Source: Polaribacter sp. L3A8
GTDB taxonomy: Bacteria > Bacteroidota > Bacteroidia > Flavobacteriales > Flavobacteriaceae
DNA length: 64,000 nt
Assembly: GCF_009796785.1 (NCBI RefSeq)
Contig: NZ_CP047026.1
Location: 2,142,501 to 2,206,500 of the forward strand
Reading direction: 5' to 3'
Part shown: positions 29,840 to 46,818 of the stretch, one piece after another
Layout: every line of letters begins with the position of its first letter
Numbering within the stretch: the first letter of the stretch is position 1
Notes under the pieces: model-generated
What the model saw: only the letters and a program-made list of their open reading frames with translations
Told to the model about the DNA's origin: nothing
The model's database searches: none
Position numbers and translations under genes: made by a program

Positions 29840-32356
29840 TTACTTCTTTTTTGTTGTTTTTCTTACCGTAGTTTTCTTTTTTGCTGCAGGCTTCTTTTTA
29901 GCTACCTTTTTCTTAGGCGTTTTAGCTTCAATCATCTTTACAGCTTCTTCCTTAGAAAGTTTTTCTATTTCTGTGGTTTTAGGTAACTCAATTTTAATCT
30001 TTCCTTTTATCACATTAAAACGTCCCCAACGTGCTTTTTCTACACGAATAGCAACATCTTCCCAATTATGAATTACTTTATCTATTTCTTTCTGTTTTTT
30101 AACTTCAATTAATTCAATAATGTCGTCATCGGTAAGATTGTCAAAATCGTATTTTTTACTTACGTTGATAAAAATAGAATTCCATTTTAAGAAAGGTCCA
30201 AAACGCCCAACTCCCTTTTGCACAGGTAAATCTTCGTAATGATAAATTGGAGCATCTGCTTTTTGTTTTGCTACAATTAATTCTATTGCTCTTGGCAAGT
30301 CTACCTCCATTGGGTTTTCTCCTTTGTCTAAAGAAACAAACATGGTTCCAAAACGAATATAAGGACCAAAACGACCGTTAGAAACAATTACTTCTTCATC
30401 TTCGTAACCACCTAATGTTTTTGGAAGCAAGAATAACTCTAAAGCTTCTTCCATGGTGATGGTTCCTAAATTCTGATCTTTATTTAAGCTAGCAAACACT
30501 TTTTCTTCGTCTTCTGGCGCTCCAATTTGTGCAATTGGTCCAAATTTACCTAGACGAACTAAAACTGTTTTTCCTGTTTCTGGATGTTTACCTAAAATAC
30601 GTTCTCCACTCTCTCTCTCTGCATTTTCTTTAACATCTTCTACATTATCATGAAATTTGGTATAGAAACCTTTAATCATCTCTATCCAATCTTCATTTCC
30701 TTCAGAAATATCGTCAAATGAACTTTCTACTCTTGCTGTAAATCCAAAATCTAAAATATTAGAAAAGTTAGCAACTAAAAAGTCGTTTACGATATTTCCA
30801 ATATCCGTAGGAATTAATTTATTTTTATTTGAACCCGTTTTTTCAGTCAAGGTTTCACTTTTTACAGTACCTGAAACTAAAATCATTTGTTCGTAATTTC
30901 TTTCTAAACCTTCATCCTCTCCTTTTTCTACATAGCCTCTTCTTTGTACAGTAGAAATTGTTGGTGCGTATGTAGATGGTCTACCAATACCTAATTCTTC
31001 TAATTGTTTTACCAAAGAAGCTTCTGTAAAACGGTAAGGCGGACTTGTAAAACGTTGTGTTGCATTTATAAAAGAATACTCTAATGCTTCACCAACTTTT
31101 AAATTTGGTAGCATTCCTGCTTGTTCTTCCTCATCATCATCTTTTCCTTCTAAATACACTTTTAAGAAACCATCAAACTTTATCATTTCACCATTTGCAG
31201 TGAATATTTTAGAGTTCTCAGAGTTCTCTATCTTAAAATTCGTTCTTTCTAACTGAGCATCACTCATTTGAGAAGCTAGTGTTCTTTTCCATATTAAATC
31301 ATACAATCTAGTTTGATCATACTCAGTAGAAATCGAATGCATTTTCATGTTGGTAGGGCGAATAGCCTCATGCGCCTCTTGAGCACCTTTTGCTTTCGTC
31401 TTAAAAACACGTTGTTTGCTATATTCTTTACCGTAGTAATTTGTAATTTCTTCTTCAGCAGCGTTTCTTGCATCAACAGATAAGTTTAAACTATCTGTTC
31501 TCATATAGGTAATTAAACCGGCTTCATACAAACGTTGTGCAACTTGCATTGTTTTTGCTACCGGAAAACCTAATTTCCTAGATGCTTCTTGCTGTAACGT
31601 AGACGTTGTAAATGGTGCTGCTGGAGATTTCTTTGCTGGCTTTTTAGTTAACTCTGCGATAGAAAAATCTGCATTTGCACACGATTTTAAGAAATTTTCT
31701 GCTGTTTTTTTAGTATCAAAATTCTTTGGAATGGTTGCTTTAAACGTTTTTCCTTCAACATTAGCAAATTCTGCAACTACTTTATAATGTGTTTCTGCAT
31801 TAAATTCTTGAATACTTCTTTCTTTTTCTACAATTAAACGAACCGCTACAGATTGTACTCTACCTGCAGACAAACCTCCTTTAACTTTTCGCCATAAAAC
31901 AGGCGATAATTCATACCCAACAAGTCTGTCTAAAACTCTACGTGCTTGTTGTGCATTTACCATATTATAGTCTATATCTCTAGGATTTTCGACTGCTTTT
32001 AAAATGGCATTTTTTGTTATTTCATGAAAAACAATACGTTTTGTATTTTCATCCTTTAAACTTAATTGCTCTTTTAAATGCCATGCAATTGCCTCACCCT
32101 CTCGATCCTCATCACTTGCTAACCATACTGTATCTGCTTTTTTTGCTAAAGCCTTCAACTTTTTTACAACTGGTTTTTTATCATCAGAAATAATATATTT
32201 TGGACTAAAATCTCCTTCTACATCAATACCCAATTCTTTGGATGGTAAGTCTGCAATATGACCATAACTAGATTCTACTTGAAAATCTTTTCCAAGAAAT
32301 TTTTCGATGGTTTTTGCTTTTGCTGGTGACTCTACAATTACTAAATTCTTTGCCAT
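29840..32356 (-). CDS. topA: DNA topoisomerase I
   Basis: Type IA topoisomerase that relaxes negative supercoils, 838 residues. TOPRIM domain at the N-terminus (LVIVESPAKAKTIEKFLG; ASDEDREGEAIAWH), catalytic Tyr284 in AGLITYMRTDS, and C-terminal topoisomerase repeats (RFGPYIRFG, GRFGPFLKWNS) with no cysteine zinc fingers. The tail is lysine-rich (KKKVAKKKPAAKKK), probably for DNA binding. A TACTTTTG box on the minus strand (32410-32417) may be its promoter. Confidence 0.97.
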   Translation of the reverse strand: MAKNLVIVESPAKAKTIEKFLGKDFQVESSYGHIADLPSKELGIDVEGDFSPKYIISDDKKPVVKKLKALAKKADTVWLASDEDREGEAIAWHLKEQLSLKDENTKRIVFHEITKNAILKAVENPRDIDYNMVNAQQARRVLDRLVGYELSPVLWRKVKGGLSAGRVQSVAVRLIVEKERSIQEFNAETHYKVVAEFANVEGKTFKATIPKNFDTKKTAENFLKSCANADFSIAELTKKPAKKSPAAPFTTSTLQQEASRKLGFPVAKTMQVAQRLYEAGLITYMRTDSLNLSVDARNAAEEEITNYYGKEYSKQRVFKTKAKGAQEAHEAIRPTNMKMHSISTEYDQTRLYDLIWKRTLASQMSDAQLERTNFKIENSENSKIFTANGEMIKFDGFLKVYLEGKDDDEEEQAGMLPNLKVGEALEYSFINATQRFTSPPYRFTEASLVKQLEELGIGRPSTYAPTISTVQRRGYVEKGEDEGLERNYEQMILVSGTVKSETLTEKTGSNKNKLIPTDIGNIVNDFLVANFSNILDFGFTARVESSFDDISEGNEDWIEMIKGFYTKFHDNVEDVKENAERESGERILGKHPETGKTVLVRLGKFGPIAQIGAPEDEEKVFASLNKDQNLGTITMEEALELFLLPKTLGGYEDEEVIVSNGRFGPYIRFGTMFVSLDKGENPMEVDLPRAIELIVAKQKADAPIYHYEDLPVQKGVGRFGPFLKWNSIFINVSKKYDFDNLTDDDIIELIEVKKQKEIDKVIHNWEDVAIRVEKARWGRFNVIKGKIKIELPKTTEIEKLSKEEAVKMIEAKTPKKKVAKKKPAAKKKTTVRKTTKKK

Positions 32357-32477: not shown

Positions 32478-34787
32478 TTACAGAATTGTAATCTTTTTCT
32501 TCAATTTTGTTGATGAATCTCCTCCTATAAAAAGATAAAAATCTCCAGATTCTACTTCCCATTTTTTATTAATAGTATAGAATTGTAAAACCTCTTTATC
32601 TATAGTAAAAGAAGCTTTTTTTGTTTCTCCGGCTTGCAAACTAATTTTCTGAAAACCTTTTAATTCTTTTACAGGCCTAACCAAACTACCTACTAAATCT
32701 CTAATATATAATTGTACAACTTCTTCACCATTTATAGTTCCTGTATTTTTAACATCAACAGAAAGTATAATTTCTCCATCTTTAGAAGTTTCTACTCTAT
32801 CTACATTTAAGTTATCATAAGAAAAAGCAGTATAACTTAACCCGAAACCAAAAGGGTATAAGGCAGATTTTTTAGAATCTGTATACCCCGAATAGGTTAC
32901 ATGTGTGGGATTATAGGGTCTTCCTGTATTTTTTTGATTGTAAAAAAGAGGTTCTTGTCCAACGTTTCTTGGAAAAGAAACAGGTAATTTCCCCGAAGGA
33001 TTGTAATCGCCAAATAACACATCTGCAATTCCGTTTCCAGATTCAGATCCTAAATGCCAGGTAATTAAAATTCCAGGTAATATGTTGTTAACTCTAGAAA
33101 TATCCATTGGTCTTCCTGTAGAAAGTACTAAAACAATATTTTTATTTACGTTATAAACGGCTTCTATCAATTCATTTTGTAAACCTGCAAAACCAATTTT
33201 AGTTTGACTTCTTCCTTCTCCCGTTTGATATGCATCTTCACCAACTGCTAAAAAAACAATTTCAGATTTTTTTGCAACTGCAACCGCTTTTGCAATTCCT
33301 TCTTTATTTTCTGTATTAAACTCTAAAGGATGTAAAAATTGATTATTACCAGGCTTTACTGTAGGTATTGTTAATTCAATTCCTTTTTCATAATATACTT
33401 TTGTATTTGCACCAACTTTTGCCTTTACACCTTCTAATAAAGAAACAGCCGAATTATAAGTTCCTTTTGCTCTCCAATTTCCTAAAGGTTGATCTTTATT
33501 ATCTGCAAAAGGCCCAATTAGCGCAATACTTTTTATATTTTTAGAAACTGGTAAAATATTATTTTCATTCTTTAATAAAACAATAGATTTTTTTGCAGCA
33601 TCTCTTGCAATTGCTAAATGTTCTTTGGTATAAATATCATTTTTCTCTTTTTCTTCATCACAATATTTATAAGGATCATCAAATAAACCTAATTGAAATT
33701 TTAAACTTAAAATACGCTTTACAGCATCATTTATATCCTCTAAAGAAACTTTACCTTCTTCTAATAGTTTTTCTAAACTAGACTCATAAGCATAAGATTC
33801 CATATCCATATCACTCCCTGCGTTCAATGCAATTTCTGCAGCATGTTTTTTATCTTTTGCATATCCATGAGATTTCATTTCTCCAATAGAACCCCAATCT
33901 GAAACTACAAAACCTTTCCAATTCCAATCTCCTTTTAAAATATCTCTTTGTAATATTTCATGTCCTGTTGCAGGAATTCCATCAATATCATTAAAAGAAT
34001 TCATAAAAGTTGCTACACCGGCCTCTGCCGCTGCTTTAAATGGAGGTAAAATAACATTGTGTAATTCATATTCACCAATATTTACCGTATTATAATCTCT
34101 ACCAGATTCTGCAAAACCATAACCTGCAAAGTGCTTTGCACACGCTGCAATTGTATTTACGTCGGATAGATCATCGCCTTGAAAACCATGTATTCTTGCC
34201 ACACCAATTACAGAATTTAAATAAGGATCTTCACCTACACCTTCCATAATTCTACCCCATCTTGCGTCTCTAGACACATCAACCATAGGAGCAAAAGTCC
34301 AATTTAATCCAGAAGCAGCAGATTCTTTTGCAGCAATTGCTGCAGATTTTTTAATAATATCCAAATCCCAACTCGCAGATTCGGCTAAAGGAACCGGAAA
34401 AATTGTTTTTAAACCATGTATAACATCGTAAGCAAAAATCATAGGGATTTTTAACCTCGAATTTTCCATCACTAATTTCTGAGCCTCACGAACTTCTTTT
34501 ACGGAAACAACATTTAAAACAGAACCAACAAGTCCTTTTTTCATTCTATCTACCTTTTCTTTAGCACTTTTAGAAGATGCTGGTCCAGTTAAATCCCAAC
34601 CTGCAGAATATTGAACCATTTGCCCAATTTTCTCTTCTAAATTCATTAAATTTAAAACGGAATCAACTTTTTGTTCAATGCTATTATTTATTGATGTACC
34701 TCTTAAGTTTTTTTGATTTTTATCACAACTAACTAGACAAAAAATGAGAATGAAGTTGATTATAAAAAGTTTGTTTAATTTATTCAT
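32478..34787 (-). CDS. bglX: GH3 beta-glucosidase, lipoprotein
   Basis: Glycoside hydrolase family 3, 769 residues, with lipobox (Cys21 in FCLVSCDKN). Conserved segments: GLNWTFAPMVDVSRDARWGR, KHFAGYG and nucleophile Asp297 in GFVVSDWGSI, then the C-terminal alpha/beta sandwich and fibronectin-III-like domain (EVVQLYIRD). It should release glucose from beta-linked oligosaccharides in the periplasm. Start 7 bases after the preceding EEP gene, last gene of the polysaccharide locus. Confidence 0.94.
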   Translation of the reverse strand: MNKLNKLFIINFILIFCLVSCDKNQKNLRGTSINNSIEQKVDSVLNLMNLEEKIGQMVQYSAGWDLTGPASSKSAKEKVDRMKKGLVGSVLNVVSVKEVREAQKLVMENSRLKIPMIFAYDVIHGLKTIFPVPLAESASWDLDIIKKSAAIAAKESAASGLNWTFAPMVDVSRDARWGRIMEGVGEDPYLNSVIGVARIHGFQGDDLSDVNTIAACAKHFAGYGFAESGRDYNTVNIGEYELHNVILPPFKAAAEAGVATFMNSFNDIDGIPATGHEILQRDILKGDWNWKGFVVSDWGSIGEMKSHGYAKDKKHAAEIALNAGSDMDMESYAYESSLEKLLEEGKVSLEDINDAVKRILSLKFQLGLFDDPYKYCDEEKEKNDIYTKEHLAIARDAAKKSIVLLKNENNILPVSKNIKSIALIGPFADNKDQPLGNWRAKGTYNSAVSLLEGVKAKVGANTKVYYEKGIELTIPTVKPGNNQFLHPLEFNTENKEGIAKAVAVAKKSEIVFLAVGEDAYQTGEGRSQTKIGFAGLQNELIEAVYNVNKNIVLVLSTGRPMDISRVNNILPGILITWHLGSESGNGIADVLFGDYNPSGKLPVSFPRNVGQEPLFYNQKNTGRPYNPTHVTYSGYTDSKKSALYPFGFGLSYTAFSYDNLNVDRVETSKDGEIILSVDVKNTGTINGEEVVQLYIRDLVGSLVRPVKELKGFQKISLQAGETKKASFTIDKEVLQFYTINKKWEVESGDFYLFIGGDSSTKLKKKITIL

Positions 34788-34794
34788 TTTTATA

Positions 34795-35637
34795 TTATTT
34801 AATGTGAATTTCTGCTATTACAGGAAAATGATCTGAAGGATATTTTAAATCTTTTGAATCTGTTAAAACTCCATATTTGTTTACAGTGATGTTTGCATCC
34901 TTTGATAAAAAAATATAATCTATTCTTCTTGTAACTTGCTCATGAAATTTAAATGCATTAAAAGTTCCATCTGATCCAAAAACATTGTCTTTTGCCAGTT
35001 CTTTAGAATCGTTTAAATTCTTTTTTAGATTTGTAATTAACTCACTACCTGGCTCCACATTAAAATCTCCTGTTAAAACAACTGGATAATTTTTAGTGTT
35101 TACTTTTTTTATTTCTGCTTCAATTAATCGTATTCCGTTTAATTGCGCTTGCTGTCCTTTATGATCTAAATGTGTATTAAAAACCCATACTTTTTTATCA
35201 GAATTTAAAACAGTCATTAAACCATAAGTACAAATTCTTGGATATGCAGCATCCCAACCTTTAGATATTTTTTCTGGCGTTATAGATAACCAAAAAGTCT
35301 TAACATTTTCGAATTTCACTTTTCTTTTATCATAAAAAATAGCAGAATATTCTCCTTTATCTCCACCATCTCTACCCTGACCTATATAGCTATAATTTGT
35401 TAAGCTTTTATCTATATAAGCTATTTGATTAGGCCTGCCTTCTTGCGTACCAAATACAGTAGGTTCATGAAATTTAATCTGAGATAATAAAAAATCTTTT
35501 CTGTTAGACCATTGGTTTTCTCCATCAGAATTTACGTCTAAGCGAATATTATAAGTCATTACTTTTATAATATCTGTTTTTTCTAACGGAATACAACTTG
35601 TAAAAACTACAAATACCAGTATTAAAATTCTTTTCAT
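34795..35637 (-). CDS. Endonuclease/exonuclease/phosphatase-fold lipoprotein
   Basis: A 280-residue lipoprotein (Cys15 in FTSCIP) of the EEP family, which cleaves phosphoesters and phosphodiesters. All expected catalytic elements are present: MTYNIR (Asn30), TQEG (Glu66), NTHLDH, LTGDFNVEP, RRIDYIF and YPSDHFP (Asp269-His270). Nucleic acid, phospholipid-type head groups or sugar-linked phosphodiesters are all possible substrates. Tight placement (11 and 7 base gaps) between the GDPD-GH16 gene and the GH3 gene suggests it acts on a decoration of the same glycan. Confidence 0.88.
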   Translation of the reverse strand: MKRILILVFVVFTSCIPLEKTDIIKVMTYNIRLDVNSDGENQWSNRKDFLLSQIKFHEPTVFGTQEGRPNQIAYIDKSLTNYSYIGQGRDGGDKGEYSAIFYDKRKVKFENVKTFWLSITPEKISKGWDAAYPRICTYGLMTVLNSDKKVWVFNTHLDHKGQQAQLNGIRLIEAEIKKVNTKNYPVVLTGDFNVEPGSELITNLKKNLNDSKELAKDNVFGSDGTFNAFKFHEQVTRRIDYIFLSKDANITVNKYGVLTDSKDLKYPSDHFPVIAEIHIK

Positions 35638-35648
35638 TTTTAATCGTT

Positions 35649-37226
35649 TTATTTTTGATATACCCTAACATAATCGACAATCATTTTTTGAGGAAAAATA
35701 GAATCGTCAATTCCTTTTTTACCACCTAACATTCCGCCTACTGCTACATTTAAAATTAAATAAAACTTTTGATCAAAAGGCCATTCTGCAGTTGTTTTAT
35801 GTTGATTTTTAAAGGTATTATACACTTCATTATCTAAAATAAAATCCATTTTTTCGGGTGTCCATTCTAGTGTAAAAACATGAAATTCTTCATTAGGTTC
35901 ATCAATAAAAATACTTTTACCTTGTTGCGTTTTTTTTATATGATTAAAAGCTTTTGTATGTACAGTTCCAAAAATTGTATCATTATTAAACCCCACATGC
36001 TCCATAATATCAATCTCTCCAGATTCTGGCCAACCAACATCCTCTTTATTTTCTCCTAACATCCAAATTGCCGGCCATAGACCAACACCTTTTGGTAATT
36101 TTGCTCTAACATCTATTCGTCCATATTGCCAAGAAGCAAGATTTTTAGTTGTTAATCTTGCAGAAGTATATTTTGCTGTTTTACGTTCTGCTGCATACTT
36201 TTTCCAGCTTTTCTTTAATAGTTCTGGATTGTTATAATCTTTATTATCTATAGTTTCTTTATGTGCCTCAATAATTAAATTTCCGTTTTCTACTCTGGCA
36301 TTTTTTAGGCTATCTGTATAATATTGGTTCTCTCTATTAGCAATAAAACCGTAGGCATAATTCCATTTACTACTATCTGGTTTTCCTTTATAATTAAACT
36401 CATCACTAAAAACCAATTGATATCCATCTTTAATAGGCGATTCATTTATTCTTTCGAATACTAATTCTGGCTTGTCTGTAGTTATAAAATTAAACTCATT
36501 TGCTATCAGCCAATCTATATCACTAGAACTATTTGCGGTCCAACTATTTAAAGTAATACCTAATTCTTTAGCACTTTTAATGTATTCTGGATGCGTTTTA
36601 ATTTTATACAAATGATAATCTAAACCCTTAATTCCGTTTTCTTTTAAAAACTCTGGAGACTTATAACCATCTAAATACTGTGTTTTTGCACTTGGACTTT
36701 CTTCAATAATTTGTTTTAAAATATCTAAGCTAAAACTAATATAAGAACCAATGTATTTATCTGCTTTTACTTCTTTTACGAGCTCTAGTGTTTTGGTTGT
36801 AATTATAACGTTTCTTTCTTTAGAAGATGTTGGTTTAATTTCTACAATAAAACTAGTGGAAGTGTTATTTTGCATACCCGCCAATAAATACTCTTTTAAT
36901 GTTGGTAGCTTTTCTCCGTTAAAAAGTTTTGTTTGCGCTAATTCTTTGTATTCAGTTTCTTCTATTAAGAGGTTATTATAGTCTTTATCATGTGTAACTA
37001 TTAATACCTCATCTTTTGTCATTCTTACATCAAACTCGCTACCATAACAATTTAATCTAATAGCTTCTTTTAATGAAGCAATTGAGTTTTCTGGTATTTC
37101 TTTACTTTTCCAAGCTCCCCTGTGAGCTATTACAGCATTTTTAGCAAAGTCTATTTTTTTATTTGTTGATGACTCAGCACAAGAGAAGAATAATAAAGTA
37201 ATAAAAACAAATATTAAATGGCGCAT
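35649..37226 (-). CDS. GDPD-GH16 fusion lipoprotein (phosphodiesterase + beta-glucanase)
   Basis: A 525-residue lipoprotein (Cys16 in LFFSCAESS) with two catalytic domains. Residues about 30-275 are a glycerophosphodiester phosphodiesterase: AHRGA (His35, Arg36), PENS, SEFDVRMT (Glu64, Asp66), VTHD (His79), IVEIKP and LNSWTAN, all key residues kept. Residues about 285-525 are a GH16 beta-glucanase: LVFSDEFN, LWPAIWMLG and the catalytic ESGEIDIMEHV with Glu404, Asp406 and Glu409. GH16 members of this type usually cut beta-1,3-glucans such as laminarin. The fusion suggests cutting of a backbone and removal of a glycerophosphate-like substituent on the same polymer (inference). Confidence 0.92.
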   Translation of the reverse strand: MRHLIFVFITLLFFSCAESSTNKKIDFAKNAVIAHRGAWKSKEIPENSIASLKEAIRLNCYGSEFDVRMTKDEVLIVTHDKDYNNLLIEETEYKELAQTKLFNGEKLPTLKEYLLAGMQNNTSTSFIVEIKPTSSKERNVIITTKTLELVKEVKADKYIGSYISFSLDILKQIIEESPSAKTQYLDGYKSPEFLKENGIKGLDYHLYKIKTHPEYIKSAKELGITLNSWTANSSSDIDWLIANEFNFITTDKPELVFERINESPIKDGYQLVFSDEFNYKGKPDSSKWNYAYGFIANRENQYYTDSLKNARVENGNLIIEAHKETIDNKDYNNPELLKKSWKKYAAERKTAKYTSARLTTKNLASWQYGRIDVRAKLPKGVGLWPAIWMLGENKEDVGWPESGEIDIMEHVGFNNDTIFGTVHTKAFNHIKKTQQGKSIFIDEPNEEFHVFTLEWTPEKMDFILDNEVYNTFKNQHKTTAEWPFDQKFYLILNVAVGGMLGGKKGIDDSIFPQKMIVDYVRVYQK

Positions 37227-37260
37227 TATGTAAGTTTTAGTTAATGTTTATCTATGTAAT

Positions 37261-37311
37261 ATTAATAGAAAAGCATCGAAAAAGTTGATTTTTCGATACT
37301 TTTCTATTAAT
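37261..37311 (-). promoter_or_regulatory. Long hairpin between susD and the enzyme genes
   Basis: A 23-bp inverted repeat with one mismatch (arms 37261-37283 and 37289-37311) and loop GTTGA lies in the 105-base gap. No strong T-run follows on the minus strand. It may partly end transcription or stabilise the upstream susCD message so that transport proteins exceed enzymes. Confidence 0.7.
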
Positions 37312-37331
37312 TATTTAAAAAAAATGAGAAC

Positions 37332-38909
37332 TTAATATCCATCATTTTGTGGGTATCCTTCACCTAAGACATCTAAATCACCCTGAGCGATTGGCCAGTT
37401 AATAAAATAAGATCTCCAATTGGTTCTTGGATCTTTAGAACCTAAGTTTGCAGGAAAATATTCTCCATCTCCTGCAAATGTTGTCATTTGATAATCAATG
37501 ACACTTTGTCCCATTCTTTTTAAAGTAAACCATCGCTGTCCTTCAAAAGCTAACTCTCTTGCACGTTCATCTAAAATTGCTTGTTGATCTACACTCGTTA
37601 AAGGAGCAGCATTTGCTCTATTTCTTATTGCATTAATATAAGGTAATGGATCTCCACTAGAACGCATAATAGCTTCTGCTGCAATTAAATAAGTTTCTGC
37701 TAATCTATATACCAAAATGTTTCCCGTTTGAAGATACGAATCTGGGTTTCCATTTTCTTGAGAAAATTTGATACAAGAAGGATGCATTCTTTGATAATAA
37801 CTTTGATAAGTATCAGATGGATTATCAAGATCTGTAATGGGTGCGTAATCATCTAATTCCTCTCCGATTCTATCTCCAGATGTATAATAATATTTTAATC
37901 TAAAATAAGTATCATCATCTCTAGTATCATTAGGATCTTCACTTAAAAGACCTAATAAATATAGGTTTGGCAAAACACGAGAAAAACCTCTACCACCTTG
38001 CTCATTATTATTTTCAATTCCAGATATTTGAAAGTATTGAGTTACATAATTTGCATTCGTCATATTTAAACCACCACCACCAGGTAATTCATTATTTCGT
38101 TGTATTGTAAATAATGTTTCTGAAGTGTTTCTATCTCCTACAAAAACTTCTGCAGTACTTGAAACTAATGCATGAGGCCCTTCTTCTATTAATGATACTG
38201 CTTGTGCTTTCGCTTCTTCCCAATTTCCTTCCCACATAGCAACTTTAGCTTTTACATGTTTAGCAGTACCTTTTGTAACTCGCCCAAAAGTATCTGTCCA
38301 AGATAAATTTTCTACGGCATAAGCTAAATCATTATTTAAAAGTGTAAATATTTTTTCTTCTGAAGATTTATCACTTATTACATCAAAAGCATTTTCAACA
38401 GTTGCTGGTTCATCATTTACATAAATATTACCATACATTCTATATAAATAAAAATAAGAATGTGCTCTAAAAAACTTAGCTTCTGCAATAATTTTTTTTC
38501 TTGAAGCTTCGTTTATATTTTCTACCTTTTCTGCTGCACTAATAATCGCTGTTGCCTGAGTAGCAATATCATAATAATGCTTCCAAAATAAAGTAGAAGC
38601 TAAAGTTGAACCATAATCTGCAGGAGAAACAGCTCTTTCATACCTACCAATTAATCCTGTATAGCCAGTTCTACTAAAAGTTAAATCTCCTCTAGTAGAC
38701 ATTAAAACAGATCCCATATAATCTTCTGTACTCTTATCATATCGGTTTCTTTCTGAAGCATATAAACTAACTACACCAGATTTTAATCCTATTTCTGATG
38801 CATATACATCCGTTGCACTTATCTCTGTTGATACCTCTTCTTCTAAAAAATTTTCACAAGATGTAAGAGTACCTAAAACAATTAACAGTAAAAAAATACT
38901 GAATTTCAT
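37332..38909 (-). CDS. susD: SusD/RagB family glycan-binding lipoprotein
   Basis: Surface lipoprotein that forms the lid of the SusC transporter. The start at 38909 gives MKFSIFLLLIVLGTLTSCEN with lipobox Cys18 and acidic residues directly after, a surface-export type signal; an upstream ATG (38936) would add 9 polar residues ahead of the signal. The 525 residues include the TPR-like helices (AEAKFFRAHSYFYLYRMYG) and C-terminal LAFEGQRWFTLKRMG, LNP-like end typical for SusD. It follows SusC by 44 bases. Confidence 0.95.
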   Translation of the reverse strand: MKFSIFLLLIVLGTLTSCENFLEEEVSTEISATDVYASEIGLKSGVVSLYASERNRYDKSTEDYMGSVLMSTRGDLTFSRTGYTGLIGRYERAVSPADYGSTLASTLFWKHYYDIATQATAIISAAEKVENINEASRKKIIAEAKFFRAHSYFYLYRMYGNIYVNDEPATVENAFDVISDKSSEEKIFTLLNNDLAYAVENLSWTDTFGRVTKGTAKHVKAKVAMWEGNWEEAKAQAVSLIEEGPHALVSSTAEVFVGDRNTSETLFTIQRNNELPGGGGLNMTNANYVTQYFQISGIENNNEQGGRGFSRVLPNLYLLGLLSEDPNDTRDDDTYFRLKYYYTSGDRIGEELDDYAPITDLDNPSDTYQSYYQRMHPSCIKFSQENGNPDSYLQTGNILVYRLAETYLIAAEAIMRSSGDPLPYINAIRNRANAAPLTSVDQQAILDERARELAFEGQRWFTLKRMGQSVIDYQMTTFAGDGEYFPANLGSKDPRTNWRSYFINWPIAQGDLDVLGEGYPQNDGY

Positions 38910-38953
38910 GTCTTTATATATTAGTATTGATTTCATAATATTGTTTTTTATAA

Positions 38954-41900
38954 TTAAAATTTTAAACGTAATCCAAAAGTATAACTTTTCGCATCTGGGT
39001 AACCACTATCTCCAGTGTTACCAGCTGTTCTAATATCAACCTCTGGGCTATAACCAATATAATCTGTTTGTGTAAATAAATTTGCTCCTGTAATGTATAG
39101 TTTAACCTGATCTAAGCCTAATCTATCTAACAAATCTCCAGGTAAAGAATACCCTAAACTTAAGGTTCTTAGACGCACATAAGAAGCATCGCTAATAGCT
39201 AAAGAATTTAAGTATTGCGGAGCACTTCCCAAAGTTGGTATTGGATATGTTGTAGATGGATTCTCTGGTGTGTAATATGGTACTTTAACACCGTTTAAAA
39301 CACCTTGTCTGTATGCTCCACTATTTGCATCTGTTAAAATTGAATTTGATTTTCTTATACCTTGTACTGCATAAAAATCTACTAATAATTCAAAGCCTTT
39401 ATATTCAAAATTTGTAGAAAAAGAGCCAAACCAATCTGGAGTAGTTTCAATAACTTCTCTATCTTCTTCTGTTATTTTTCCATCTCCATTTAAATCAGCA
39501 ACCCTAATATCTCCTGCTCTTAAATTAGGTTGTTTAATAAGATTATCTGGGTTAGATTGTGGTGCATTAGCTAGGTCTTCTCCTTCTTGCCATATACCAT
39601 CAAACCTATATGCTTTAAAAGAATTTATTGCATAACCTACATACTTCTGATTACCACTTCTAGTATCTTCTAATATAGCTACCCCATCTCCATCATCATA
39701 TAATGATAATAATTTATTTTTATTTTTAGACCAGTTTGAAGATACCGACCATCTAAAAACATCATTACTAATAATATTAGCTGTTAAACTTAACTCTACA
39801 CCTGTGTTTTGTAATTCTCCTCCGTTTGTATAAGTATCTGCAAACCCAGTTATAGATGGCACAGGTCTGTTTAACAACAAATCGGTAGTTCTAGCATCAT
39901 AATAATTTATATTACCAGTTAAAATATTATCGAAAATTGAAAAATCAAGTCCTAAATTAAAAGTAGTTACTTTTTCTGAACGTAAATTTGGGTTTGGCAA
40001 TGTAGATAAAGTTCCAAATCCTGACTCTGTACTTTCATTAAAAATATAATTATTTCCATCAGCTCTAGCTACACTAGATAATGTAGTTCCTAAACTATTT
40101 GTTAATGCACCATAACTAGCTCTAAACTTTAATTCCCTAATTGCATCTACATTTTCTAAAAAGCCCTCATTATGCATTTTCCATGCAAATGATCCTCCAA
40201 AACTACTTCTCCATTTATTGTCTGCTGAGTTTACTGATGAAGCATCATTTCTTGCAGTAAAATTTAATAAATATTTATCCATTAAACTATAACGTAATCT
40301 TGCCATTAAACCAACTAGACTAGACTGCGTTTTTAATCTACTAATGCTACTTTCTCCAGTATAATCTGCAATACCATCATATCCTTGTGAATCACTCACA
40401 AAACCTTCACCTACAGAAGTAGTTCTAGAGCGTTTGTTTTCTTGAACAGAATGTACCAAGGTTACATTAAACTTATGATCTTCATTAATCTCTTTATTAT
40501 AATTAAGGATATTTTCTAATAAATATGATTCCTTTAACTGACTTTCAATAGTAGCTCTTCCATTAACATCATCTGCAGCACCACTTAAAATAGATTGGTA
40601 CTTTCCTCTTTCATAAGTCCTTCTAGTAAAATTTGTTTTTAATTGATATTGTAAGTTCTCTAAAATTTGCCAACTCGGTGTAATATTTACAACAAAATCA
40701 TTTCCTTTTATATCTTCATTCTGTTCTCTAAGGTTCCATAATGGACTTACCCCAATTTCATCTCCATAAGGGAAACGAGATAAACTTCCATCATCATTAT
40801 AAGGTTTAGCAATAGGTGATGTTGAAATAACATTTACACCTGCAGCTTTATCCGTATCACTATTTAGTAAGTTTAAATCAAAACTAACAGAAACCTTGTC
40901 GCTAATCTTTTGGTCTACATTTAACCTTAACGTTTTTCTAGTGTAATTAGAATTTGGAATTAATCCTGTTTCTTTAAAATAATTAACAGACCCAAATACT
41001 TTAGTTATTTCAGTTCCACCGCTAACACTAAGCGCTTGACTATTTACAACTCCACTTCTTAAAAGCTCTTCTTCCCAATCTACAAATTGATTATTGTTAA
41101 GTGCTTCTAATTCTATATCAGAGAAAATAGCGTCATCAGGAGAATAAGTACCATCATCTGCTCTATTTGCTTCTCTTCTTAAGTCAGCTAATTCTTGCCC
41201 ACTAAATACATCAAAATTTCTTTCTATAGTTTTAGTGGTTGTATAACCATGGTAACTAACTTGTATCTTTTTATTTTTTCCTCTTTTAGTTGTAATTAAC
41301 ACTACCCCATTTGAAGCTCGAGATCCATAAATTGCTTGTGCAGATGCATCTTTTAAAAACTCCATAGAAGCAATATCATCTTGATCTATATCTGCAATAC
41401 CATCATCTCTAATAATTCCATCTACTACATAAATAGCACTTACATCACCAGATAATGAACCTTCTCCTCTAAAAATAATATTTGCAGCAGCCCCACCAGG
41501 TCTTAGGGTTCCACTACCAACACTTACTTGTAATCCTGCAATTCTTCCTCTTAGCATTTCTGTAACGTCTGATGTAGGTGACAGAGTAGCTTTTTCTAAA
41601 TCTGCCGTTGCAACAGCATTTACTAGATCACTTTTTCTTTGTGTACCATACCCTACCACAACAATTTCGTCTAAGGCATTAGCTTCTACTTCTAAAGACA
41701 CCGTAATATTATTACCTGTAATTGCAACCTCTTTAGTCTTATACCCTAAATAAGTAATACTAAACATTTTTGCTTCATTAGAAACAGCAATGGAAAAATT
41801 TCCATCGAAATCTGTAGATACACCATTTGAAGTTCCTTTTACAGATACAGACGCTCCAGGTAAAGGCATGTTACTCTCATCCAATACGATTCCTTTTATA

Positions 41901-41989
41901 GTTCTTTGCGCAAAAGCCGATAAGCTAAAAGCAAAAAAGAATAAAAGAGACAATATATAAAATCTTCTTTTTTTGATTAATTCAACCAT
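38954..41989 (-). CDS. susC: SusC/RagA family TonB-linked outer-membrane transporter
   Basis: Outer-membrane importer of 1011 residues: signal peptide (about 1-28, SAFAQ), carboxypeptidase-regulatory-like domain (about 30-110), plug with the SusC signatures VVVGYGTQRKSDL, LRGRIAGLQV and AIYGSRASNGVVLITTKRG, and a C-terminal barrel ending FGLRLKF. With SusD it imports oligosaccharides; the neighbouring GH16 and GH3 genes suggest beta-1,3-glucans. Confidence 0.96.
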   Translation of the reverse strand: MVELIKKRRFYILSLLFFFAFSLSAFAQRTIKGIVLDESNMPLPGASVSVKGTSNGVSTDFDGNFSIAVSNEAKMFSITYLGYKTKEVAITGNNITVSLEVEANALDEIVVVGYGTQRKSDLVNAVATADLEKATLSPTSDVTEMLRGRIAGLQVSVGSGTLRPGGAAANIIFRGEGSLSGDVSAIYVVDGIIRDDGIADIDQDDIASMEFLKDASAQAIYGSRASNGVVLITTKRGKNKKIQVSYHGYTTTKTIERNFDVFSGQELADLRREANRADDGTYSPDDAIFSDIELEALNNNQFVDWEEELLRSGVVNSQALSVSGGTEITKVFGSVNYFKETGLIPNSNYTRKTLRLNVDQKISDKVSVSFDLNLLNSDTDKAAGVNVISTSPIAKPYNDDGSLSRFPYGDEIGVSPLWNLREQNEDIKGNDFVVNITPSWQILENLQYQLKTNFTRRTYERGKYQSILSGAADDVNGRATIESQLKESYLLENILNYNKEINEDHKFNVTLVHSVQENKRSRTTSVGEGFVSDSQGYDGIADYTGESSISRLKTQSSLVGLMARLRYSLMDKYLLNFTARNDASSVNSADNKWRSSFGGSFAWKMHNEGFLENVDAIRELKFRASYGALTNSLGTTLSSVARADGNNYIFNESTESGFGTLSTLPNPNLRSEKVTTFNLGLDFSIFDNILTGNINYYDARTTDLLLNRPVPSITGFADTYTNGGELQNTGVELSLTANIISNDVFRWSVSSNWSKNKNKLLSLYDDGDGVAILEDTRSGNQKYVGYAINSFKAYRFDGIWQEGEDLANAPQSNPDNLIKQPNLRAGDIRVADLNGDGKITEEDREVIETTPDWFGSFSTNFEYKGFELLVDFYAVQGIRKSNSILTDANSGAYRQGVLNGVKVPYYTPENPSTTYPIPTLGSAPQYLNSLAISDASYVRLRTLSLGYSLPGDLLDRLGLDQVKLYITGANLFTQTDYIGYSPEVDIRTAGNTGDSGYPDAKSYTFGLRLKF

Positions 41990-42259
41990 TATAATTGTTT
42001 TTTTAAAATTTAATTAGTGTGTCAATATTACCTTAAAGAGATCTAGCTTACTTTAACACAACATTAACTTAAAATCAATTTTATGTACACAAAAAGAAGG
42101 GGTCTAAAACATCTTTTTTACAAACAAACTACATAAAAAAAACACACAAAAAAACATATAAAACCATATAAATAAAGGGATGTAATCGATTTAATAAAAA
42201 AACACAAAAAACAGTATAAAAACTAAAATGTAGGGGTTTTGTAGAGGGTATTTTCTTGT
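41990..42259. other. Intergenic region upstream of susC
   Basis: A 270-base A/T-rich gap between the regulator and susC. The word AGGGGT occurs at 42098-42103 and 42232-42237; the second belongs to a tandem pair GTAGGGGTTTT / GTAGAGGGTATTTT (42230-42254). No good TTG-TAnnTTTG promoter is visible on the minus strand, consistent with activator-dependent transcription. Assignment of these words as regulator sites is inference. Confidence 0.35.
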
Positions 42260-45043
42260 CTAAATATTCAAAATATAATCTATTAAGTGAGTTTCTTGTG
42301 GTAAATTAAGTTTTTTTCTTAACCTGTATCTTCTAATCTCAACACTCTTTACAGAAATATTTAACAAAGGAGCTATTTCTTTTGATGATAAATTCAGCCT
42401 TAAATAAGCACAAAACTTTAAATTACTATTCGTTAATTCTGGGTGTAACTTTTTAGCTCTTTTTAAAAACTCTTTATCTACATTATTAAAAGCTTCTTTA
42501 AAAAAATTCCAATCTTTATTACTATTTAAATTTTCATCAATCAATTTAAATACTTCGTTTTCTTCTTTAATTTCAGGGATCTTTTTTAATTCTTTTCTAA
42601 TACCCCTTAAGAACTCATTTCTTTTAACAATACTCATCGTAGAAATTGCCAATTCTCTATTTTTACTTTCTACTTCTTGACTTAATTTTTCATTCTTTAA
42701 TCGAATAACCTCTCTATCTGTCTGAATTTTCTGCAATTCTAATTGTCTTGCATTATCTTCGATTATTTTTAAATGTTGTTTTTTGTAATACTTCTTATAT
42801 AATTTGTGGATTATAAAAATCAAAAAAAGAAAAAACAGCACATAAAAAACAATTGCCAAGCTAGATAAATAAATAGGCGGTTTTATCTCAAATTGATAAA
42901 AAATAGTATTATCAGAAACTCTATTACCAACTTTAGATCTTATAGATAAGTTATAATCTCCAAAAGATAAATTATCAAAAGTTACTTCCGACTTGTTTTC
43001 TAGATCAACCCAGTTATTATCATTTAATTTATATTGATAATTTACAAATTCATATTTATTATAAATTGGGCTACTAAATTTAAAATTTAACGAATTTTCA
43101 TTATTCCTAAATATTTTATATCCTGATGTAGAAACATCAACTGCATCAACATTTTTAACATTAACTTCATTCAGAAAAATAGTATGAGAAAAATCTGGTT
43201 TTTCATCTAAATCTAAAAGTAAATACCCATTTGTTTTCCCTATTAAATAAGTGTTTTTATAAATATTTGATATGTTTTCAAAACTGATAGTTGTTTTTCG
43301 TAAATTATTTTTAATTTGAATAAACTTTACAGAAAACTTATTTTTAATAGGTCCTTTTTCTAAATAACTAATTGTACTCTTATTAAACGACCAAAGCCTG
43401 TTCTTTTTATCTAAAATCAGTTTTCCCGAAATATATTCATCACGAGAAAAGAGAATATTTAAAACTGAATCTTTTTGAGCTAGTTTATGATTAGCATTTA
43501 ATCTAAGAATACCATCTTTATGACTATACAGTAGTTTGTCATTATATTTAATTAAACCAGAACCTTTCCCTTTACCTACAGAAGAAAGTAATTTATTTTC
43601 TATAAAACTAGTATAATCATTACTTAAAATTAATCGATATACACCTTTATACTCATGATTTACAAAAACGGTATCTTTATTAAAAAGCTCGAAAAAACGT
43701 GCAGAACTCTGAAAGCCTTTTATTCTATTTCTTAACTTCCATTTATTATTCACTTTTTCTAAAATACTCATTCCTGCATAATGACCTTGTAATAACAAAT
43801 TAGGTTCATTCGGAATTTCTTTAATTCCCCAAGTTCCAGAAAAGCTTGTAATTTTAAAAGCAACATCTTTCTTTATAAGCAAAGTTCCGGCTGTATGTCC
43901 ACAGAATAAATCTCCGTTTATATTAACCAAAGACCAAACTTGCCCTTCTGTTCCTTTTATTTTTTTTAACGGTTCGTTTTTATTGATTGATTTATAAAAA
44001 AGTCCCTGATTTGTGCCAATATATAATTTACCATTATAATTGATTGAACAATAAGTTGATCCAAAAAAACCATTATTATCGTTAAATTCCTTTACATAAG
44101 ACTTAACGTTTAAACAATTAATTCCATTATCTAAAGCAGACCAAACATTACCATCGGCATCCTCAAACAATTTTAACACGGTATTATTAGACAACCCTTT
44201 TGTTTGATCTATTTTATTAATAATTTCTCCATTTTCAGAAACACGAATAATTCCATTAGAAACTGTACCTAATACAAAAGTATTATCCTTTAATTGTATT
44301 CCACAAAAGAATTGATAATTACTGAGACCTATTTTTACAGAAGGTTTCCACTTCTTAAGAACATTGTCTTCTAAAGTAAAAATACCTTTATGTCTTGTTA
44401 AAAACATAAAACCACGTGTTGTTTTAAAAACACTTAAAACAAGTTTTACTCCAAATTCATTAGGAAAAACAGTAACAACCTTTTCTTCATCATTTTGTAA
44501 ATGAACAAATTGACGGTTATTTTTAAAAATATAAATATTATTATCTATTTCAAAAATTCGGTAATAGTTGTCAAAATCAGAACGATAACTTATCTCTTCT
44601 GTTTCGCTATTATAAAAATATATTCGATGAAATGATTGAAACAAAACCCATTTATCAATCTTTTTAATATTCCAAATATTCTCATCCTCTACCAACTCAT
44701 TTTCAATTTTGCTAGATAATGACGTGTACTTTAATGCCCCCAGTTTGTTTGTTTTCCAAAAACCAAACTCCATATAAGCACCACTGTATATCCTATCATC
44801 CACAGATAGTAAAGACCTCATTACACTATTGTTTGGCGACTTATACAATTTCCATCTACCTCCGTTATACTCTAATAAACCTTCGTTATTAGCTACAAAA
44901 ATAAATTTATCTTTATTTTGAGTTATTGCCCAATTCTGATTTTCGGCATTATAATTTTTTGGAAGAAATTTTAAAATAGGTGAAATTTCTTGTCCAACTA
45001 AAGTTGATGTAATTAGAAAAAATAATAAGATTTTGATTCTCAT
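42260..45043 (-). CDS. SusR-like membrane transcription regulator (propeller, YYY, LuxR-type HTH)
   Basis: A 927-residue one-component regulator. Signal peptide (1-17), periplasmic beta-propeller repeats (about 20-640), a triple-tyrosine (YYY) Ig-like domain (about 650-720; YQYKLNDNNWVDLEN, DYNLSIRSKVG), one membrane span (about 725-747), a coiled coil, and a C-terminal LuxR-type helix-turn-helix (LSSKEIAPLLNISVKSVEIR). No histidine kinase or receiver domain is present. It probably senses imported oligosaccharide in the periplasm and activates the adjacent susCD genes. Its start is only 4 bases after a truncated sulfatase gene. Confidence 0.92.
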   Translation of the reverse strand: MRIKILLFFLITSTLVGQEISPILKFLPKNYNAENQNWAITQNKDKFIFVANNEGLLEYNGGRWKLYKSPNNSVMRSLLSVDDRIYSGAYMEFGFWKTNKLGALKYTSLSSKIENELVEDENIWNIKKIDKWVLFQSFHRIYFYNSETEEISYRSDFDNYYRIFEIDNNIYIFKNNRQFVHLQNDEEKVVTVFPNEFGVKLVLSVFKTTRGFMFLTRHKGIFTLEDNVLKKWKPSVKIGLSNYQFFCGIQLKDNTFVLGTVSNGIIRVSENGEIINKIDQTKGLSNNTVLKLFEDADGNVWSALDNGINCLNVKSYVKEFNDNNGFFGSTYCSINYNGKLYIGTNQGLFYKSINKNEPLKKIKGTEGQVWSLVNINGDLFCGHTAGTLLIKKDVAFKITSFSGTWGIKEIPNEPNLLLQGHYAGMSILEKVNNKWKLRNRIKGFQSSARFFELFNKDTVFVNHEYKGVYRLILSNDYTSFIENKLLSSVGKGKGSGLIKYNDKLLYSHKDGILRLNANHKLAQKDSVLNILFSRDEYISGKLILDKKNRLWSFNKSTISYLEKGPIKNKFSVKFIQIKNNLRKTTISFENISNIYKNTYLIGKTNGYLLLDLDEKPDFSHTIFLNEVNVKNVDAVDVSTSGYKIFRNNENSLNFKFSSPIYNKYEFVNYQYKLNDNNWVDLENKSEVTFDNLSFGDYNLSIRSKVGNRVSDNTIFYQFEIKPPIYLSSLAIVFYVLFFLFLIFIIHKLYKKYYKKQHLKIIEDNARQLELQKIQTDREVIRLKNEKLSQEVESKNRELAISTMSIVKRNEFLRGIRKELKKIPEIKEENEVFKLIDENLNSNKDWNFFKEAFNNVDKEFLKRAKKLHPELTNSNLKFCAYLRLNLSSKEIAPLLNISVKSVEIRRYRLRKKLNLPQETHLIDYILNI

Positions 45044-45047
45044 ACTT

Positions 45048-45185
45048 CTATTTAAAAGGTGTAAAATCAGAATATCCTAAATCATCTACAACTATTAATA
45101 ATATATTTGGTTTTTTGACTTCTTTTTTACTCTTTTTACAAGAAAAAGCCATAAATATTACAACTAATATTAAAATATCTTTCAT
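45048..45185 (-). pseudogene. Truncated sulfatase lipoprotein (N-terminal 45 residues)
   Basis: The frame encodes a lipoprotein signal (Cys16 in FMAFSCKKSK) followed by KKPNILLIVVDDLGYSDF, the unmistakable sulfatase N-terminus with the metal-binding Asp pair (34-35), then TPFK and a stop. The active-site CxPSR motif and all of the remaining 400 or more residues are absent. A TAGTTTTG box upstream (45215-45208) suggests the promoter survives. The break lies 4 bases before the regulator's start, so a deletion probably joined the two genes. Confidence 0.85.
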
Positions 45186-45363: not shown

Positions 45364-46818
45364 ATGGAATACGTAGAAAAAATCATAGACGAGAAAATAC
45401 AAGGGAAAGCTCTTGTTACCGAAAATAAAAAAAATAACACTAAAAAATTATTCATAGAAAGCTACGGCTGTCAAATGAATATGAATGATAGTGAAATAGT
45501 AGCCGCTATTTTAGATAAAGAAGGCTACAACACAACCCAAATTCTAGAAGAAGCAGATTTAGTTTTAGTAAATACTTGCTCTATTAGAGAGAAGGCAGAA
45601 ACTACTGTTCGTAAAAGATTACAGAAATACAACGCTGTAAAACAAGTGAACAAAAACATGAAAGTGGGTGTTTTAGGCTGTATGGCAGAACGCTTGAAAG
45701 AAAAGTTTTTAGAAGAAGAAAAAATAGTAGACTTAGTTGTTGGTCCTGATGCGTATAAAGATTTACCTAACTTATTAGAGGAAGTAAACGCTGGTAGAGA
45801 TGCCGTAAATGTAATTTTATCTAAAGAAGAAACCTACGGAGATATTTCTCCGGTGCGTTTAAATTCTAATGGAGTTACCGCATTTGTATCTATAACCAGA
45901 GGTTGTGACAATATGTGTACTTTCTGTGTGGTTCCTTTTACAAGAGGACGAGAAAGAAGCCGTGACCCAAAGAGTATTATTGAAGAAATTCAATCTATGG
46001 TTGATAGAAATTTTAAAGAAATTACACTTTTAGGTCAGAATGTAGATAGTTTCTTATGGTATGGTGGAGGATTGAAAAAAGACTTTGGCAAAGCATCTGA
46101 AATGGCACAAGCAACTGCTGTAAATTTTGCACAATTATTAGATATGTGTGCTACAGAATTCCCAAAAACACGTTTTCGTTTTGCTACTTCTAATCCGCAG
46201 GATATTAGTTTAGACGTGATTCACGCAATAGCAAAACACAAAAATATCTGTAAATACCTTCATTTACCTGTACAAAGCGGAAGCAACAACATGCTAAAAG
46301 CCATGAACAGACAACATACTCGTGAAGAATACATCGAATTAATTGATAATATCTTTAAGATTGTACCAGAAATGTCTTTATCACAAGATATGATTGTAGG
46401 TTTTTGTGGAGAAACAGAAGAAGATCATCAAGATACTTTAGATTTGATGAAGTACGTAAAATACGACTTCGGTTTTATGTTTACATACTCTGAAAGACCA
46501 GGAACTCTAGCTGCTAAAAAAATGGTAGATGACGTTCCTTTTCAAACAAAAAAACGAAGATTACAAGAAATAATAGACCTACAACAAGAACACGCTCTAT
46601 ACAGAACACAACAACATTTAGGAAAAACAGAAGAATTTTTAATTGAAGGTACTTCTAAGAAAAACCCAAATGAATGGAAAGGTAGAAATACACAAAATAC
46701 CGTTGCCGTTTTTGCAAAAGGAAACTACAAGCTAGGAGACTTTGTAATGGTAAAAGTAGAAGATTGTACGTCTGCTACCTTAAAAGGAACTGTTGTTGGG
46801 TATTCTGATAATAATTAG
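45364..46818 (+). CDS. miaB: tRNA-2-methylthio-N6-dimethylallyladenosine synthase
   Basis: Radical-SAM methylthiotransferase that modifies A37 of tRNAs reading UNN codons. The 484 residues contain the N-terminal UPF0004 domain with three cluster cysteines (SYGCQMNMND, NTCSIREKAE, GCMAER), the radical-SAM motif GCDNMCTFC (Cys181, Cys185, Cys188) and a C-terminal TRAM domain. The preceding promoter supports the ATG at 45364. A palindromic repeat begins two bases after its stop codon. Confidence 0.97.
   Translation: MEYVEKIIDEKIQGKALVTENKKNNTKKLFIESYGCQMNMNDSEIVAAILDKEGYNTTQILEEADLVLVNTCSIREKAETTVRKRLQKYNAVKQVNKNMKVGVLGCMAERLKEKFLEEEKIVDLVVGPDAYKDLPNLLEEVNAGRDAVNVILSKEETYGDISPVRLNSNGVTAFVSITRGCDNMCTFCVVPFTRGRERSRDPKSIIEEIQSMVDRNFKEITLLGQNVDSFLWYGGGLKKDFGKASEMAQATAVNFAQLLDMCATEFPKTRFRFATSNPQDISLDVIHAIAKHKNICKYLHLPVQSGSNNMLKAMNRQHTREEYIELIDNIFKIVPEMSLSQDMIVGFCGETEEDHQDTLDLMKYVKYDFGFMFTYSERPGTLAAKKMVDDVPFQTKKRRLQEIIDLQQEHALYRTQQHLGKTEEFLIEGTSKKNPNEWKGRNTQNTVAVFAKGNYKLGDFVMVKVEDCTSATLKGTVVGYSDNN

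Follow-up and report, generated by a model that had tools for sequence, protein, structure and literature searches.

In the family Flavobacteriaceae, the polysaccharide utilization loci (PULs) for laminarin, represented here by eight stretches (L066-L073), combine SusC and SusD with a laminarinase of glycoside hydrolase family 16 (GH16) and a GH3 beta-glucosidase, in the composition SusCD, GH16, GH3, GH16. The PUS (PusCD) clusters of Flavobacterium join SusCD to phosphomonoesterases and phosphodiesterases (PMC8115612). Bacillus subtilis GlpQ, a glycerophosphodiester phosphodiesterase (GDPD), frees glycerol-3-phosphate from a polymer; unlike the enzyme described below it is a stand-alone protein. 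It acts on wall teichoic acid and is stereospecific for sn-glycerol-3-phosphoryl groups (PMC7086022; structure 5t9c). Here we describe a PUL of Polaribacter sp. L3A8 in which a GDPD is fused to a GH16 enzyme. It occupies positions 32478-45043 of a 64,000-nucleotide stretch of contig NZ_CP047026.1 (positions 2,142,501 to 2,206,500), and this whole stretch is called the window. Judging from comparative sequence data, we consider it moderately probable that the locus is dedicated to a beta-1,3-glucan, possibly 1,6-branched, which carries glycerol-phosphate diesters.

All genes of the cluster lie on the minus strand, in the order regulator, SusC, SusD, GDPD-GH16 fusion, EEP (endonuclease/exonuclease/phosphatase) protein and BglX-like GH3. 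The locus has the hallmarks of a PUL, with SusC and SusD adjacent and sharing their strand with a regulator and with glycoside hydrolases, and the presence of GDPD and EEP sets the locus apart from an ordinary laminarin PUL, which holds no phosphodiesterase-type genes. The fusion (35649..37226, minus strand) consists of a GDPD domain at residues ~24-262 (PF03009, 79 bits against a cut-off of 23.6) followed by a laminarinase-type GH16 domain at residues 263-525 (PF00722, 83.1 bits against 22). The EEP protein (34795..35637, minus strand) matches PF03372 with 52.7 bits against 24.5. The GH3 beta-glucosidase (32478..34787, minus strand) exceeds the cut-offs of PF00933, PF01915 and PF14310 and also passes the NCBIfam BglX model NF011678 (750.5 bits against 666). 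The gene set, order and single strand given in the preliminary description agree with open reading frames, strands and profile matches, and the spacing of 7-11 bases that it reported for the enzyme genes corresponds to measured gaps of 7 and 11 bases. A lipoprotein-like signal was read by eye from the translations of all three enzymes, and in the fusion its cysteine is nearly invariant among 16 aligned proteins, that of the window included.

Both halves of the fusion look active, as judged from their intact catalytic residues. In the alignment of fusion proteins (29 rows, 28 of them distinct, as the protein of the window is present twice), GDPD residues H35, R36, E64, D66, H79, E129 and K131 are invariant in the 28 distinct proteins. 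In the GH16 ExDxxE motif, E404 and D406 are found in 28/28 and E409 in 27/28. B. subtilis GlpQ is described with seven polar residues in its active site (PMC7086022), and for six of them (His43, Arg44, Glu70, Asp72, His85 and Glu152) the GDPD half has a counterpart by motif. The GDPD fold and the HR/ExD/H/E pattern of the active site are common to the two enzymes. The predicted structure of the fusion (mean pLDDT 84) aligns over 474 residues, 48% of them identical, with 7wwc, the structure of a beta-1,3(4)-glucanase in complex with laminaritriose. Its GDPD half can be aligned with structures of GDPDs that contain glycerol-3-phosphate. The fold of the fused enzyme has already been solved (7ww4, deposited as 'multidomain beta-1,3(4)-glucanase'); no paper naming 7WW4 was found in a literature search that lacked most subscription papers. 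In the EEP alignment (51 rows, 50 distinct), N30, E66, H156, D191, N193, D240, D269 and H270 are near-invariant (>=97%), and we take these residues to have metal-binding or catalytic roles. The nearest solved relatives of EEP are 3mpr and 4c1r, the latter a sequence relative at 156.7 bits that was deposited as a mannosyl-6-phosphatase and presumably belongs to a Bacteroides yeast-mannan context. We propose that EEP may be a periplasmic phosphatase for glycerol-phosphate or a phospho-sugar.

A full-length fusion was found in 24 genomes of the overlapping family, genus and phylum samples (14/397, 6/97 and 9/395 genomes, respectively; two of the nine phylum-sample fusions matched as two pieces inside one open frame). 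Among named organisms, Polaribacter has the proteins most similar to the fusion, at identities of 79% and less. The gene set is kept in other Bacteroidetes: 22 of 28 fusion loci have EEP as the next downstream gene, in the orientation of the fusion and with a gap of -4 to 51 bases. This arrangement was present in the window, in 13/13 other family loci, in 5/5 further genus loci, in 1/5 further phylum loci and in 2/4 named contigs; the six fusion loci that have no adjoining EEP are L075, L077 and L162-L165. A chance neighbourhood is ruled out by the maintenance of this gene order across many genera. GDPD and GH16 occur as separate adjacent or nearby genes in L050-L053 and L055, and a fusion in G225 was discarded on account of a stop between its GDPD and GH16 genes. 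The GH16 halves are 62-85% identical to that of the window in most family loci and 41-43% identical in L045, L046 and L076. The occurrence of the two activities as neighbours in some loci and as fusions to divergent GH16 halves in others suggests that they may have been coupled repeatedly.

The evidence that points to glycerol-phosphate comes from the relatives. A MIP (GlpF-like) channel gene lies within 9 kb of the fusion, with the gene of the glycerol kinase GlpK alongside, in 12 of the 24 fusion genomes and in 7 of their 15 genera (MIP was searched in 52 genomes and GlpK in 30). These linked genomes comprise five of the genus of the window and seven others; within the genus sample, all five other fusion genomes show the linkage. 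About 0.14 linked genomes would be expected by chance (66 MIP genes in 52 genomes of ~4 Mb each, kinship ignored), as against the 12 observed. The position of these glycerol (glp) genes varies between lineages, which argues against one inherited neighbourhood. Where spacing was measured it is tight: 13 bases between regulator and GlpF and 23 between GlpF and GlpK in L156, and 16 between GlpK and a sulfatase gene in L201. In L034, genes for a GlpD-like dehydrogenase, GlpK and a MIP channel precede SusC. This GlpK reaches 764.5 bits against an NCBIfam cut-off of 590, the channel 183.7 against a MIP subfamily cut-off of 171 (a match that leaves the solute unspecified), and the dehydrogenase, with 307 bits, stays under the 360 required. 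A tree was made of 26 GlpK rows (midpoint root, some long branches, identical copies and copies shorter than 440 residues excluded). In it, 15 of 16 PUL-linked rows fall into one clade with support 100/98, together with two others, L221 from a fusion genome and L212 from G409. The GlpKs L211, L213 and L215, from same-genus genomes that have no fusion, form a separate clade.

Control loci were compared with these; control and test stretches were hand-picked from ranked lists and many of the genomes are related, and the stretches are of ~20 kb, unequally extended. The eight laminarin PUL stretches, from five genera, contain no GDPD, EEP or glp genes (8/8), and in two of these genomes (G299 and G097) an EEP gene lies ~16 kb from GH16, beyond the stretch (L180). 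EEP itself is ruled out as the gene tied to the glp genes, which are present in 0/20 EEP loci that have no GDPD (three of the 20 shorter than 12 kb). Among these EEP-only loci is L194 (regulator-SusCD-GH2-GH16-EEP-GH3), whose genome also holds the linked locus L043. A control with generic GH16 patterns gave, among the matches listed, 80 GH16 loci with lengths between 3.8 and 22.3 kb, eight being shorter than 10 kb: 74 have neither GDPD nor EEP, 3 have GDPD only, 2 have both and 1 has EEP only. The glp genes occur in a single one of the 80, L074, which is a fusion locus. Of 13 MIP genes picked away from the fusion, one (L218) has a SusC within 20 kb. Stand-alone GDPD loci (L050-L055, L057-L065, L148, L173-L175) have glp genes in at least 5 of 19 cases (G157, G225, G133, G336 and G373), a lower bound, as four of the five positive loci were extended and the remaining 14 were not. 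A second type of SusCD locus unites GDPD with a calcineurin-like phosphoesterase, has no GH16 and is joined to GlpF-GlpK-GlpD (L063/L205 and L064/L206; GH97 is present in L063). These loci repeat the pattern of diesterase, phosphatase and glycerol genes.

The glp linkage in relatives and its absence from controls thus favour a beta-1,3-glucan bearing glycerol-phosphate over plain laminarin. The preliminary description had suggested phosphoglycerol or phosphocholine-like substituents. The former gains from the glp genes at the PUL in half of the fusion genomes and from their absence in laminarin and EEP-only controls; the latter found no support.

In the scheme that follows, we infer what the substrate is, in which order and where in the cell the reactions take place, and that EEP acts as a phosphatase. 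SusCD would bind and import glucan fragments. GH16 and GDPD would work on one and the same molecule, the former cutting the beta-1,3 chain and the latter a glycerophosphodiester, with release of either glycerol-phosphate or glycerol and a phospho-sugar. EEP would then take off the phosphate, and GH3 would convert the bare oligosaccharides to glucose. In the linked relatives, glycerol would enter via the MIP channel, be phosphorylated by GlpK and be oxidized by a GlpD-like enzyme encoded close by, where its gene is present. A phosphatase and a glycerol channel are to be expected in cells that do not import intact glycerol-phosphate. The glycerol-3-phosphate transporter model TIGR00881 was passed by 0/9 genomes, three of which (G421, G431 and G314) reached 235-250 bits, and controls passed it in 2/14. 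In the strain of the window, the yield would be glucose and phosphate, with glycerol probably unused.

The suggestion of the preliminary description that bacterial periplasmic glucans might be the target is not borne out. A Pfam scan of the six locus proteins found no beta-1,2-glucan hydrolase family, such as the GH144 or GH162 type. Escherichia coli periplasmic glucans have a beta-1,2 backbone with beta-1,6 branches and receive their phosphoglycerol from phosphatidylglycerol (PMC3818809). Phosphatidylglycerol carries sn-glycerol-1-phosphoryl groups, a kind that GlpQ does not attack (PMC7086022). A GH16 laminarinase would not fit such a backbone. A periplasmic glucan would, moreover, call for a GDPD of other stereochemistry than GlpQ, or the target would have to be made from CDP-glycerol. 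Among other candidate sources, phosphorylated oomycete storage glucans may be considered.

The genome of the window itself has lost part of the system. It contains no MIP gene and no GlpK over the cut-off. Glp genes elsewhere in the genome are ruled out: the only two GlpK relatives are 26-28% identical, and there is one GlpD-like protein, 34% identical. The GlpF-GlpK route would therefore not serve for glycerol use in this strain. The PUL of the window lies between the type I topoisomerase gene topA (29840..32356, minus strand, TIGR01051 over cut-off) and miaB (45364..46818, plus strand, TIGR01574 over cut-off), as it does in 5/5 other same-genus fusion genomes. In all five relatives GlpF-GlpK stands between the regulator and miaB, in 4/5 together with a sulfatase gene, and the corresponding interval of the window measures only 320 bases. 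Within this interval, 45048-45185 on the minus strand encodes the first 45 residues of the relatives' sulfatase and then a stop (tblastn with four of these sulfatases, E values from 3e-8 to 7e-11, the match running from residue 1 to residue 45-51). This truncated 5' end was missed in the preliminary description. It marks the site of a deletion that removed GlpF and GlpK and the greater part of the sulfatase gene from the lineage of the window. The stub ends 4 bases ahead of the regulator start and may now serve that gene as a leader ORF; when this stretch was folded as RNA, z was 0.70.

Several observations weigh against a glycerol-phosphate-bearing glucan as the substrate. Half of the fusion genomes (12/24) show no glp linkage, counting as unlinked G047, whose fusion contig is only 7.9 kb long. 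There is no MIP gene in the genome of the window (G000) or in G181, and no GlpK in the fusion genomes G000, G173, G153 and G181; these four genomes and the TIGR00881 matches of 235-250 bits slightly lower the probability of the proposed substrate. The PUL-linked GlpK L205 is not part of the main clade and sits on a long branch. Of the stand-alone GDPD loci, 14/19 showed no glp genes, most being viewed to ~20 kb only. EEP is also found in loci that have no GDPD, hence it is not specific to glycerol-phosphate, and the sulfatase conserved in many relatives has no explanation in a glycerol-phosphate model. The same-genus genome G409 (L212) has GlpK-GlpF between miaB and topA and no PUL, so that either part can be lost without the other, and the two may represent an old neighbourhood within the genus. 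Together with the state of the window, this is the main evidence against a strict mutual need of PUL and glp genes. Finally, we know of no beta-1,3-glucan that bears phosphoglycerol.

Among the other explanations, the one that survives best, and which we still regard as unlikely, is that of a locus for algal lysates, in which GH16 and GH3 would act on ordinary laminarin and GDPD, EEP and the glp genes would recover the glycerol and the glycerophosphodiesters (phospholipid head groups after deacylation) arriving with it, so that one regulon would serve two substrates. The substrates of GDPDs like GlpQ include glycerophosphocholine, -ethanolamine and -glycerol (PMC7086022), the GH16 half is laminarinase-like with the whole fusion resembling laminaritriose-bound 7wwc, and GDPD occurs in some SusCD loci that have no GH16 (L063 and L064). 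Against two substrates, however, speaks the fusion of GDPD to GH16, apparently to more than one kind of GH16 in view of the two identity classes of its halves, and GDPD, EEP and glp genes are all lacking from L066-L073, the eight stretches of ordinary laminarin PULs. Considerably less probable is a PUS-like cluster for phosphate scavenging, whose phosphodiesterase and phosphatase would supply phosphorus and whose glucanases would merely open the material. The Flavobacterium clusters, which are induced by phosphate depletion, offer a precedent, but their description separates them from SusCD loci that contain carbohydrate enzymes (PMC8115612), and here GH16 and GH3 are present and glycerol-use genes stand in relatives. 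Least probable of all is that the GDPD half serves for structure or binding in an ordinary laminarin PUL with EEP and the glp genes as hitchhikers: although 7ww4 and 7wwc were deposited as glucanases, EEP is widespread in other PULs and glp genes and PUL were lost separately in two same-genus genomes, a decayed module would hardly keep all of the checked GDPD catalytic residues in 28/28 distinct proteins, and the glp linkage is far over chance.

The remaining genes of the locus are as follows. The SusD-like lipoprotein (37332..38936, minus strand) exceeds the cut-offs of PF07980 and PF14322, and the SusC-like TonB-dependent transporter (38954..41989, minus strand) those of TIGR04056 (777.5 bits against 368), PF07715 and PF00593. 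The regulator (42260..45043, minus strand) has Reg_prop (PF07494) and a LuxR-type helix-turn-helix (PF00196, GerE) over cut-off; its Y_Y_Y domain (PF07495) stays below (22.9 against 26.6), and its membrane segment was seen by eye only. Between the window (region 37332-41989) and the same-genus loci L156-L160 at the same site, SusD (39-65% identical) has diverged far more than GH3 (77-82%). In G431 the regulator gene (L157/L199) is apparently split into pieces. A sulfatase sharing 68-75% identity with the L034 protein lies beside the locus or its glp genes in L034, L038, L039, L055, L168, L170, L199-L201, L203, L209 and L210, and the CSPSR motif is present in all four copies checked (L034, L038, L039 and L055). 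EEP relatives occur in 162/397 genomes, often within other PULs (L177-L196); some proteins of these clusters resemble GH92 mannosidases in their first residues. The genome of the window has a separate SusCD locus (L197, 96000-115999) with a GH16 38% identical to that of the window and a GH72-like protein, which is possibly the strain's ordinary beta-glucan PUL. A plasmid search matched 308 records, none covering more than 80% of the query.

Should the glycerol-phosphate reading hold, there would be an unrecognized polysaccharide that carries carbon and phosphorus together, and the PULs now counted as 'laminarin' would split into two kinds. GDPD with GH16, EEP and GlpF-GlpK would provide a gene signature for finding consumers, and the enzyme could be used to detect the substituent. 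A wider proposal is made tentatively, as plausible yet short of probable: marine bacteria may meet an undescribed beta-1,3-glucan substituted with glycerol-phosphate, perhaps also sulfated, and a class of PULs may couple GDPD and a phosphatase to GlpF-GlpK-GlpD and so consume sugar and glycerol-phosphate, with one branch using GH16/GH3 and EEP and a second branch relying on a calcineurin-like phosphoesterase, which GH97 accompanies in one case.

The literature search, which was carried out without most subscription papers, found no paper that links glycerophosphodiester phosphodiesterase to PULs, laminarin or laminarinase and none that treats phosphoglycerol together with PULs, and a broader search gave no title fitting this locus type among the matches listed (title and start of abstract). 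The nearest published concept found is that of the PusCD clusters (PMC8115612). Compared with the laminarin PULs L066-L073, which are devoid of GDPD, EEP and glp genes, the locus of the window differs also in sequence, the SusC proteins being 27-32% and the GH16 enzymes 35-43% identical. It shares with the PUS clusters the joining of SusCD to phosphodiesterase-type enzymes. Its SusCD is not set apart from carbohydrate enzymes as in those clusters: GH16 and GH3 belong to the same gene run, and in relatives glycerol genes are added to it. The locus of the window thus joins the carbohydrate and the phosphate types of SusCD cluster.

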